Of a stretch of 64,000 bases of DNA, positions 37,167-39,660 are shown one piece after another. Numbering within the stretch: position 1 is the stretch's first letter; each line of letters starts with the position of its first letter. The stretch comes from Acidobacteriota bacterium (lineage in GTDB: Bacteria; Acidobacteriota; Terriglobia; Acidiferrales; UBA7541), in NCBI GenBank assembly GCA_003154775.1, contig PMES01000110.1:41107-105106 (forward strand), in the 5' to 3' direction. A program made the position numbers and the translations under genes. The notes under the pieces were generated by a model. It worked only from the letters and a program-made list of their open reading frames with translations, was not told where the DNA came from and did no database searches.

Positions 37167-37292
37167 CTCCGCGAAACCTGCGTGAAAAGTGGAAGGTCAC
37201 TGTATTCCTGGAAACACCCGCCTGCGCGCCGTCAGATTCCGGTTGGAATTCTCAGTTGGTGTGCTACTCTATTGAGGATGTCGGCTAACCTC

Positions 37293-37397
37293 ATGAAGCG
37301 AAAGCCCTCCTGTGCCACGCGGTCGATCATTTCGGCTACGACTATTACTACGATTATGTGCACTACCACCGCTTCGGGCGACGGGAGAAACGGCTAG
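37293..37397 (+). CDS. Thr/Ile-rich leader peptide of lysC-asd (attenuator)
   Basis: A 34-codon frame starting at ATG 37293 (or five codons earlier at ATG 37278) contains SATTITTIMCTTTASG, eight Thr and three Ile within 17 codons. This strongly recalls the E. coli thr leader. Its TAG stop at 37395-37397 lies 16 bases before a strong intrinsic terminator, and lysC-asd follow. Ribosome stalling when threonyl- or isoleucyl-tRNA is scarce would be read out as antitermination. GAGG lies just upstream of 37278. No clear antiterminator pairing was found by eye. Confidence 0.6.
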   Translation: MKRKPSCATRSIISATTITTIMCTTTASGDGRNG

Positions 37398-37413
37398 CTA
37401 CCAGAAAGTTTCC

Positions 37414-37451
37414 AACCCACCGCCAGAAGCGAAACTGGCGGTGGGTTTTTT
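37414..37451 (+). terminator. Intrinsic terminator in front of lysC
   Basis: AACCCACCGCCAG (37414-37426) pairs perfectly with CTGGCGGTGGGTT (37435-37447) around an eight-base loop. It is followed by a T-run (37446-37451). It ends 56 bases before lysC, so it must be regulated or leaky. Confidence 0.85.
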
Positions 37452-37507
37452 AGTTTCTGCCCTCCCCAAGAATCGCTTCCGCGGTACACAACCAAGGAGC
37501 ATTTGCC

Positions 37508-38548
37508 ATGTGCCCGGAACGCCAGGAAGTATCTCTAGCAGCAGGGGACCATTTAGCCCCGCCCAAAGCAAACGCACTCTTCCCACGGGATGTAACCGCC
37601 GCAACGTCGACTCGCTGCCCAGAGCGCGGCATCGCCTTCAAGTTCGGCGGCTCTTCCCTGCTCGGGGCCGATTGTATATTGCATGCCGCCGCGTTGGTGC
37701 GGGATGCGGCCGCTGCCTCACCCGTGACAGTGGTTGTCTCCGCGATGAAGGGAGTTACGGATACGCTCTTGGAAATCGCCGGAAAACTCGCGCGCAACGA
37801 TTTCGCAAAAGCGCGTGAAGCGGCGGAGCACCTCGTCGTGCTTCATCTCGACGTCCTCAATGCCTTGCAACTTCCCGAACATGACCATGCGCAGGTCAGG
37901 CACGAATTGAAACTTCTCGCCCGCGACCTGCTCCATGAAACGCCGAAGCGCGGGCCTGTGGCTGTGGACCCCGCTCTCTTTGACCGGTTGGCCTCCTTTG
38001 GCGAACGCTTTAGTGCCCGCCTGTTCGCTGCCGCTCTGAACAAGCTCGGCATCGTCGCGGTTCCCGTGGCTTCCTCGGACTTCGTCCTTACCTGTGACAC
38101 TTTCCAGGACGCGAAACCCCATCTCCGGCAGACCAGAGAGCGCGGCCGCGAGGTCCTCGTGCCATTGCTGGAATCGGGTATAGTGCCGGTCGTCACAGGC
38201 TTCATCGGCGCGACCCTCGACGGCCGCATCACCACCCTTGGTCGCAATAGCTCCGATTTCTCTGGCGCCCTCATCGCCCATGTCGTGGACGCCGAAGAAC
38301 TCGTCATCTGGACCGACGTGGACGGCATTTTCACTGCCAGCCCGCACGAAATCGCGGGGGCCAAACTGCTCCACGAATTGAGTTACGATGAAGCCCACGC
38401 TTTGGCCGCAAGCGGGGCAAAAGTGCTTCACCCGCACGTCTTGCCACTCGCGGCAGAGCACGCAATGACTGTGTGGGTCAGGAATACATTCAAGCCGCAC
38501 CTGCGCGGAACGCGCATTGGGCCGGCGAAGGACGGGGGTGCAGCATGA
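37508..38548 (+). CDS. lysC: Aspartate kinase, catalytic domain only
   Basis: The enzyme phosphorylates aspartate, opening the Lys/Thr/Met/Ile pathway. The 346 residues contain FKFGGSSLLGADCI, VVVSAMKGVTDTLLEIAGKL, FGERFSARLFAAALNKLGI, VTGFIGATLDGRITTLGRNSSDFSGALIAHVV and WTDVDGIFTASPHEI. It stops at VRNTFKPHLRGTRIG, so the usual two ACT regulatory domains are missing and allosteric feedback is unlikely. AAGGAG lies eight bases before ATG 37508. A leader peptide and terminator precede it; asd follows with an ATGA overlap. Confidence 0.93.
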   Translation: MCPERQEVSLAAGDHLAPPKANALFPRDVTAATSTRCPERGIAFKFGGSSLLGADCILHAAALVRDAAAASPVTVVVSAMKGVTDTLLEIAGKLARNDFAKAREAAEHLVVLHLDVLNALQLPEHDHAQVRHELKLLARDLLHETPKRGPVAVDPALFDRLASFGERFSARLFAAALNKLGIVAVPVASSDFVLTCDTFQDAKPHLRQTRERGREVLVPLLESGIVPVVTGFIGATLDGRITTLGRNSSDFSGALIAHVVDAEELVIWTDVDGIFTASPHEIAGAKLLHELSYDEAHALAASGAKVLHPHVLPLAAEHAMTVWVRNTFKPHLRGTRIGPAKDGGAA

Positions 38549-39660
38549 GCGCTCTTGCAAACGGAAAAAAATGGCGCACAGGAGTTTTGGGTGCCACCGG
38601 AATGGTGGGGCAGCGCTTGGTGAAGCTACTCGCCGATCACCCGTGGTTCACTTTGACGGAAGTCGCCGCATCGGAGCGTTCCTCCGGTAAATGCTATGCC
38701 GAAGCCGTGCGTTGGCACCTCGAAGGACCGGTTCCGGAAGTCGCTCGCGGCCTCGTCGTGAAGGAACTCGAACCCAACCTGGATTGCGATTTCCTCTTTT
38801 CGGCGCTCGATTCTTCGGTAGCCGGCCCGGCGGAAGAGGAATACGCGCGGCGCGGCTATCCCGTCGTAAGCAATTCACGGAATCACCGCATGGACCCGGA
38901 CGTTCCTCTGCTCATTCCGGAAGTCAATGCAGCGCACCTGAACGCCATCCCGGTGCAACAGAAAAACCGCGGCTACGACTCGGGATTTATCGTCACGAAT
39001 CCCAACTGTTCCACGGCCGGGCTTGTCGTCGTGCTGAAGCCTCTGGCGGATGCCTTTGGACTTGAGAAAGTGTTTGTCGTCACCTTGCAAGCTATCTCTG
39101 GTGCAGGCTATCCCGGCGTCCCCGCACTGGACATCCAGGGAAATGTCGTGCCGTTCATCAGCGGCGAAGAAGAAAAGATGGAAGCGGAGCCGCAGAAGCT
39201 ACTTGGCAAATGGGATGGCAACCGTTTCATCGAAGCGGGGCTCGGCATCAGCGCCCACTGCAACCGCGTCCCTGTGGTGGATGGCCACCTGGAATGCGTT
39301 TCCTTACGCCTCAAGAAGACCGCCACGCTCGACGAAGTTCGCGAAGCGCTGCGCTCTTACCAGGTTTCAGACCAGTTGGCCTCTCTGCCCACCGCGTTGA
39401 AACATCCCGTTGTCGTTCTCGACGAACCCGATCGTCCGCAGCCCCGCAAGGATGCCAACACCGGCCACGGCATGGCCGCCGTCGTCGGGCGCATTCGTGA
39501 GTGCCCGCTGTTCGACGTCAAACTCACCTTGCTTTCGCACAATCTGGTCCGCGGCGCGGCCGGCGCTGCATTGCTCAACGCCGAACTCCTGGCGGCGCAA
39601 GGCTTCCTGAAATCGCGCAATGAAGCGCGCGAGCAGAGCGTGGAACCAGTTTCGCGCTGA
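38545..39660 (+). CDS. asd: Aspartate-semialdehyde dehydrogenase
   Basis: The enzyme reduces aspartyl phosphate to the semialdehyde with NADPH. The 371 residues show RTGVLGATGMVGQRLVKLLADHPWF (nucleotide binding), SNSRNHRMDPDVPLLIPEVN, catalytic Cys in IVTNPNCSTAGLVV, and GISAHCNRVPVVDGHLE with the catalytic His/Arg region. It belongs to the archaeal/fungal-like subgroup by the SNSRNHRM and NPNCST forms. ATG 38545 overlaps the lysC stop. A GC-rich hairpin repeat lies downstream. Confidence 0.94.
   Translation: MSALANGKKWRTGVLGATGMVGQRLVKLLADHPWFTLTEVAASERSSGKCYAEAVRWHLEGPVPEVARGLVVKELEPNLDCDFLFSALDSSVAGPAEEEYARRGYPVVSNSRNHRMDPDVPLLIPEVNAAHLNAIPVQQKNRGYDSGFIVTNPNCSTAGLVVVLKPLADAFGLEKVFVVTLQAISGAGYPGVPALDIQGNVVPFISGEEEKMEAEPQKLLGKWDGNRFIEAGLGISAHCNRVPVVDGHLECVSLRLKKTATLDEVREALRSYQVSDQLASLPTALKHPVVVLDEPDRPQPRKDANTGHGMAAVVGRIRECPLFDVKLTLLSHNLVRGAAGAALLNAELLAAQGFLKSRNEAREQSVEPVSR

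Follow-up and report, generated by a model that had tools for sequence, protein, structure and literature searches.

Among described systems, the closest textbook case is the enterobacterial thr attenuator, in which a Thr/Ile-rich leader peptide (thrL), translated from a Shine-Dalgarno-led start, stops shortly before an intrinsic terminator with aspartate-pathway genes downstream. Leaders with other codons exist too: mycobacteria carry Cys-rich uORFs, on which there is also a later experimental paper. The sections of two studies that deal with these uORFs present them as leaderless codon runs proposed to attenuate the matching pathway (PMC4633059; PMC1262725), and those of the Actinobacteria study report no conserved terminator hairpins (PMC1262725). 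A third group, covered in part of PMC8632094, comprises uORFC-8-2 (before cysS, in Rhodobacterales) and uORFC-13-1, predicted ribosome-mediated attenuators that combine uORF codons with an intrinsic terminator; they belong to other phyla and genes than the locus reported here, and are likened to it by description, not by sequence. For phyla such as Acidobacteria, the relevant passage of Naville and Gautheret 2010 states that almost all predicted attenuators are without associated function (PMC2965389), a pool to which the present element may belong. For one acidobacterial attenuator, the present analysis proposes which signal it reads, which operon it controls and a mechanism open to testing, and it yields a model that finds more. 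Literature searches, confined to open-licence papers of PubMed Central, listed none whose title or displayed abstract deals with an acidobacterial attenuator of lysC-asd or of the Thr kind.

We analysed a stretch of 64,000 nucleotides from an Acidobacteriota genome (the window), in which a short Thr/Ile-rich frame precedes lysC and asd, whose products catalyse the first steps that the syntheses of threonine, isoleucine, methionine and lysine have in common. The arrangement is most likely a ribosome-mediated attenuator of lysC-asd, its mechanism and signal being read from the sequence. Its parts are:

37243..37248, + strand: possible -35 element TTGGAA, inferred by reading the sequence, 16 nt 5' of the -10 element
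37262..37270, + strand: extended -10 element TGCTACTCT, whose end lies 7 nt 5' of the start codon of the leader
37278..37397, + strand: leader ORF, 39 codons plus TAG (ATG at 37278, TAG at 37395-37397), predicted to be leaderless
37295..37302, + strand: region 1, GAAGCGAA (codons K R), with region 2 as possible partner
37326..37370, + strand: control codons Ile17 to Thr31, IISATTITTIMCTTT
37370..37391, + strand: region 2, CGCUUCGGGCGACGGGAGAAAC, the tail of the ORF
37408..37431, + strand: region 3, the antiterminator partner, made of GUUUC, the 5' arm of the terminator and part of its loop
37414..37447, + strand: intrinsic terminator stem-loop with 13 pairs and an 8-nt loop, followed by a T-run to 37451
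37435..37447, + strand: region 4, the 3' arm of the terminator
37494..37499, + strand: Shine-Dalgarno sequence AAGGAG of lysC, read from the sequence
37508..38548, + strand: lysC, aspartate kinase of 346 aa, with the kinase domain only in Pfam
38545..39660, + strand: asd, aspartate-semialdehyde dehydrogenase of the TIGR00978 type, in ATGA overlap with lysC at 38545

The peptide read from the leader ORF (37278-37397) is MSANLMKRKPSCATRSIISATTITTIMCTTTASGDGRNG. Its Thr and Ile density (at least 10 in a 16-residue stretch) is unique among 733 short ORFs on both strands of the window, a comparison that took ORFs of 25-60 aa, one per stop codon, and counted the leader from an in-frame TTG at 37272. 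The preliminary description was right that the Thr/Ile frame ends 16 bases (37398-37413) before a 13-pair terminator with a T-run (37414-37447), and that it lies directly upstream of an aspartate kinase and an aspartate-semialdehyde dehydrogenase: both identities hold above cut-off (LysC, TIGR00657, 248.7 bits against 208.7; Asd, TIGR00978, 445.1 bits against 301.2). Folded alone, the segment 37270-37455 is more stable than its dinucleotide shuffles (z -2.99; 1 of 200 shuffles as stable). No cis-regulatory family of Rfam, T-box and lysine riboswitch included, reached its gathering score in the window.

The locus shares with the enterobacterial thr attenuator a Thr/Ile-rich leader, a stop codon near the terminator and aspartate-pathway genes downstream. 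It differs in its target (lysC-asd), in its predicted leaderless start and in the sequence of regions 2, 3 and 4, and many relatives of the window leader add Lys and Met codons. The earlier reading, which saw an attenuator with the architecture of thr, is supported by what follows, with corrections: the Rfam family Thr_leader (RF00506) scores 15.6 bits in the window where its gathering score is 55 (E 4.1), the start is probably leaderless, and in most relatives Lys and Met codons, with many Ser codons, accompany those for Thr and Ile. We reject membership in RF00506 on that score. Of the two origins that had been offered, independent or ancient, the first fits better because there is no RF00506 match (E 4.1), bearing in mind that a missing match does not prove a separate origin. 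The element is thus a real, conserved, predicted attenuator with no detectable relation to the enterobacterial thr leader, and its core resembles that of leaders with Cys codons (see below).

Other aspartate kinases are controlled by their end products through allostery. A Pfam search matched no ACT domain in the window LysC, and so, from known enzymology, the attenuator would supply the end-product control. The short LysC has the motif GRNSSD in all 11 aligned proteins (alignment A2, 11 LysC proteins), at the place where other aspartate kinases usually have GRGGSD. The same genome carries a second, longer aspartate kinase (contig C87, open frame of 485 aa). The closest named relative is Candidatus Acidiferrum typicum UBA7541, with a LysC 93% identical; in the closest relative (L002, in G035) the LysC match is reported with one internal TAA. 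A LysC match was found in 54 of the 61 genomes searched first, and matches of at least 65% identity all fall in the same genus.

Conservation was followed through 36 genomes of that genus, Candidatus Acidiferrum. The short lysC is clear in 29 of them, with fragmentary copies in two more (L031 and L032), and at all 31 short-lysC loci the leader ORF, in the same frame, occurs together with a hairpin of the type CCCACCGCC...GGCGGTGGG. A T-run follows at 30 of these 31. At the exception, L028 (G005, contig C10), the ORF and the hairpin arms are kept, the T-run is absent, and the GAAAC/GUUUC helix is altered on both sides. From these 31 leaders we built a covariance model of the core, R1, that runs from region 2 to the T-run, and obtained one match of at least 58 bits in each of 34 of the 36 genomes; the three loci beyond the 31 (L138-L140) have leader and hairpin before asd alone. 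The two genomes in which no R1 match of at least 58 bits was found are G015, 63% complete, and G021, 77% complete. An Asd match is present in 31 of the 36 genomes, all within the 34 that have the leader. The leader precedes lysC-asd or asd in 34/34 loci; a homologue of the gene upstream of it in the window adjoins it in only 11 (0.4-1.4 kb of upstream sequence available), so that the leader unit goes with lysC-asd. Alignment A1 holds 31 of the 34 leaders. The hairpin is not all that relatives keep: as the preliminary description had required, the Thr/Ile codons stay with it, with 6-14 Thr codons in each of the 34 leaders.

From its evolution, the leader ORF appears to be translated. The Thr frame is open in 34/34 leaders, frame +1 in 26/34 and the Tyr-rich frame +2 in 9/34, which bears out the earlier preference for the Thr/Ile frame; we rejected frame +2 as a coding frame for that reason. 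The distance between regions 1 and 2 takes ten lengths from 54 to 93 nt, and is a multiple of 3 in all 33 leaders measured (L012, in which region 1 is one base different, was excluded). In contrast, the terminator core follows the stop codon after 13, 18 or 20-24 nt. Two start codons were chosen by hand: in L016 the ATG 35 codons before the stop, not the first ATG, and in L031 a GTG. The check on synonymous changes that had been suggested for the Thr/Ile frame did not discriminate: in the 15 leaders of equal length among the 34, the synonymous fraction is 0.37 in frame 0, 0.37 in frame +1 and 0.185 in frame +2, and with equal values in frames 0 and +1 the Thr frame is not set apart by this check.

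Translation of the leader is probably leaderless, judging by the bases before its start codon. The motif TGnTAnnnT ends 6-12 nt 5' of the start codon in 34/34 leaders, and a Shine-Dalgarno-like motif before that codon is absent in 34/34. A sigma-70 consensus scan (-35/-10) of this part of the window found no promoter site. With the usual spacing from -10 element to start, the transcript would have its 5' end some 0-6 nt ahead of the leader start codon, and the ribosome would therefore begin at the 5' end of the transcript without a Shine-Dalgarno sequence. Leaderless genes make up 13.3% on average in three acidobacterial genomes, as given in the part of the source that concerns them (PMC3160421). 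A leaderless ribosome as sensor would be an entry point unlike that of the textbook thr leader.

Region 2 has alternative partners: the start of the ORF (region 1), or the terminator 5' arm and loop (region 3). In the window, the calculated energies are -31.0 kcal/mol (1:2 fold), -26.8 (region 2 with region 3) and -25.8 (terminator). All three folds were compared among the 31 aligned leaders. Terminator cells are 98.0% paired, and double changes are few (2 pairs and 4 cells in one count, 2 pairs and 8 cells in another). Antiterminator cells are 93.4% paired, against at most 44.6% in slid versions of the structure, and 4 cells show double changes where shuffles give 0.5. The antiterminator fold that the preliminary description had called for thus exists and is conserved. 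The 1:2 pairing holds in 79.6% of cells (at most 44.0% when slid), but double changes, in 9 pairs and 14 cells, are no more frequent than in slid versions (up to 11 and 22).

In the antiterminator, the pairing with the terminator loop covaries over a wider set, alignment A4, which joins 17 of the 34 Thr cores to 28 of the 29 weaker R1 matches described below (L165 was left out). Over these 45 Thr and Cys cores, there are 31 double-change cells against 10.9 in shuffles, and 0 of 500 shuffles reached as many. Twenty-nine of the 31 fall in the five pairs that join region 2 to the terminator loop; the same five pairs hold 67 unpaired cells, and after a slide of +3 there are still 22 cells with double changes, against the 31 of the unslid structure.

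We also folded the 34 leaders with a simulated ribosome. With the ribosome on the control codons, the antiterminator folds before region 4 is made in 33/34; with the ribosome on the stop codon, the terminator folds in 34/34; and without a ribosome, the terminator folds in 28/34 and the antiterminator in 5. For the complete RNA at equilibrium, the terminator still wins in 26/34 leaders despite the stalled ribosome, and therefore the switch would have to be kinetic.

The locus thus combines the features of the attenuator class, i.e. a Thr-run leader with a conserved frame, an intrinsic terminator and a mutually exclusive antiterminator that overlaps the ORF. It is very likely, on this comparative evidence, that transcription of lysC-asd depends on the speed of the ribosome over this conserved Thr/Ile ORF, whose tail can pair with the terminator arm and loop. 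As long as charged tRNA-Thr and tRNA-Ile abound, the ribosome would run through to the stop codon and mask region 2; regions 3 and 4 would then pair, and the polymerase would terminate at the T-run. If the ribosome stalled on the control codons, region 1 could not hold region 2, which would instead pair with region 3 before region 4 exists, and the polymerase would read on into lysC-asd. If the leader were not translated at all, the 1:2 hairpin would let the terminator form.

Which amino acids are sensed is a separate question, for which we analysed the composition of the leaders. Over the 34 leaders, residues are Thr 25.6%, Ser 20.4, Ile 9.9, Ala 9.0, Lys 8.6 and Met 4.5. The 590 central codons comprise 240 for Thr, 138 for Ser, 66 for Ile, 62 for Lys, 39 for Met and 45 others, and were compared to position-wise shuffles. 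Lys (62 against 23.0), Ile (66 against 38.3) and Ser (138 against 100.6) lie above expectation, Asn (1 against 22.6) and Thr (240 against 278.1) below it, and Met is level (39 against 37.5). These numbers open a serious alternative to a Thr/Ile sensor, namely that Thr, Ile, Lys and Met codons together report a shortage of any amino acid of the aspartate family, a reading to which we would give somewhat less than even chances. The excess of central Lys and Ile codons speaks for it, as do the near absence of Asn, which does not come through LysC-Asd, and the presence of all four amino acids in 24/34 leaders. The window's own leader, however, has Thr, Ile and Met and no central Lys; Met does not exceed its shuffles; and Ser, not a product of the LysC-Asd pathway, is above its own and as prominent as Ile and Lys combined. 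Part of this signal could also come from RNA structure: as AAG UCG complements ACG ACU, the Lys and Ser codons may have a part in RNA pairing, and likewise the Ser codons (TCG), complementary to part of the Thr codons (CGA), may do so. As the window leader is without central Lys, we commit to a sensor of Thr and Ile, and keep the four-product reading beside it. A point against the attenuator reading is that in the window leader and L031 the first five codons after region 1 include no Thr or Ile.

R1 also led beyond the Thr leaders. Among 299 genomes of the class it matched 48, of which 29 belong to the genus. The weaker matches number 29, with nine in the genus and twenty spread over 19 other genomes, and span the 92 model positions. 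In 28 of these 29 there is a short ORF in which a stretch of 12 codons includes at least 3 for Cys, and in 26 at least 4; at seven shifted positions used as control, such runs occur in 0 or 1 of 26-29. The downstream genes checked include those of a rhodanese-domain protein (L141), a nitrite/sulfite reductase (L150) and a sulfate-binding protein (L166), and, by a best match below cut-off, another nitrite/sulfite reductase (L162). A combined model, R2, gave more matches in the genus. We examined 40 further ones, down to E 1.8e-4, and found at least 3 Cys in 12 codons in 38 (a count that includes L238 and L239, better read as aromatic leaders in another frame) and at least 4 in 28; among the genes behind them are a CysD-like protein (L212, a fragment, below cut-off) and a uroporphyrinogen-III methyltransferase (L234). 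An Rfam scan of five Cys-leader loci gave only tRNA at gathering score. In all, Cys-run leaders with a similar terminator core (L141-L169, L201-L236 and L240) were seen in the genus, in other genera and in other families, before sulfurtransferase, nitrite/sulfite reductase, sulfate-binding, CysD-like and siroheme genes.

These acidobacterial leaders are the nearest relatives that we found for the window leader. Since R1, a model made of Thr leaders only, also finds Cys leaders before sulfur genes, one core appears to carry different control codons. Like the mycobacterial uORFs, as far as the available text of those studies describes them, the Cys leaders found here precede sulfur genes (PMC4633059; PMC1262725). 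The differences are the strong predicted terminator and antiterminator, the other phylum and, in the window, the other codons. A similar terminator-antiterminator core with different codon runs amounts to a natural experiment on how attenuator specificity evolves.

Three other explanations do without a ribosome reading control codons of lysC-asd. A structured RNA that senses a metabolite or a protein, the codons being incidental, would account for the strong structure conserved across the genus; we hold it to be very improbable, as the frame, the multiple-of-3 spacing and the control codons are all conserved with that structure, no Rfam family reached gathering score in the window, and the same core occurs elsewhere with Cys runs before sulfur genes. 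It is highly implausible that the peptide acts in trans and has been retained for its sequence: its C-terminal motif ASG(A/D/E)(W/G)RN is indeed conserved in most leaders, but the pairing of region 2 itself demands this motif, which in Cys leaders changes together with its pairing partner. Finally, the hairpin lies 247 bases past the stop codon of an upstream gene on the same strand, yet the idea that it is that gene's ordinary terminator, next to a Thr/Ile ORF that arose by chance, has a negligible probability and was rejected, given the conserved codon content and frame and an upstream homologue near the leader in only 11/34 loci, against lysC-asd or asd behind it in all 34.

Attenuation by a ribosome on control codons remains our preferred reading, and asd loci in other genera of the family may hint at how a Thr leader came about. 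There are 22 such loci, of which 20 were examined, one with only 44 bases upstream. An R2 match lies upstream of asd in six of the 20 (E 2.6e-6 or better, all in the direction of asd), and none was found upstream in the other 14. Their leaders are mixed: L274, for example, MSYRDQIATIMCTTMKCMCPLSGAGTLPS, stands before a reductase-like gene with asd 1.8 kb further on, and L282, MSNRRQMRTTIMGTCHKCIRPPSGAGTLPS, before asd. Both have Thr, Ile, Met, Cys and Lys codons, and ATTATGTGCACTAC is common to L274 and the window leader. By their sequence, these mixed leaders look like intermediates between Cys and Thr leaders.

Across the phylum, R2 matched in 29 of 396 genomes, and 21 loci were inspected among the 33 matches listed. 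Cys runs were found before a phosphoadenylyl-sulfate reductase (L178) and a PALP enzyme (L191), a YYWWW leader ahead of a gene that resembles trpE by a best match below cut-off (L177), a WYWW leader before a DAHP synthase (L183), and a Val/Leu/Ile-rich short ORF with a terminator before an ilvD-type dehydratase (L185, in G177).

A broader scenario, tentative and in our view rather doubtful, would unite these cases as a phylum-wide set of leaderless attenuators that share one interchangeable core of regions 2, 3 and 4 and are retargeted by a swap of the codon run: Cys for sulfur-assimilation genes, Thr/Ile/Lys/Met for lysC-asd, aromatic codons for DAHP synthase and trp, and Val/Leu/Ile for ilvD. 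The lysC-asd switch would then be a Cys attenuator retargeted via mixed Cys/Met/Thr/Lys leaders like those of neighbouring genera, and would respond simultaneously to several end products of a branched pathway.

Some phylum-wide R2 matches, such as L189, are without a clear codon run and may be plain terminators. Leaders with aromatic codons (e.g. YSYWFRFW, YYWWW and WYWW) were seen at L237-L239, L183, L177 and L181, where they precede a DAHP synthase, a trpE-like gene and a PALP enzyme resembling the beta subunit of tryptophan synthase.
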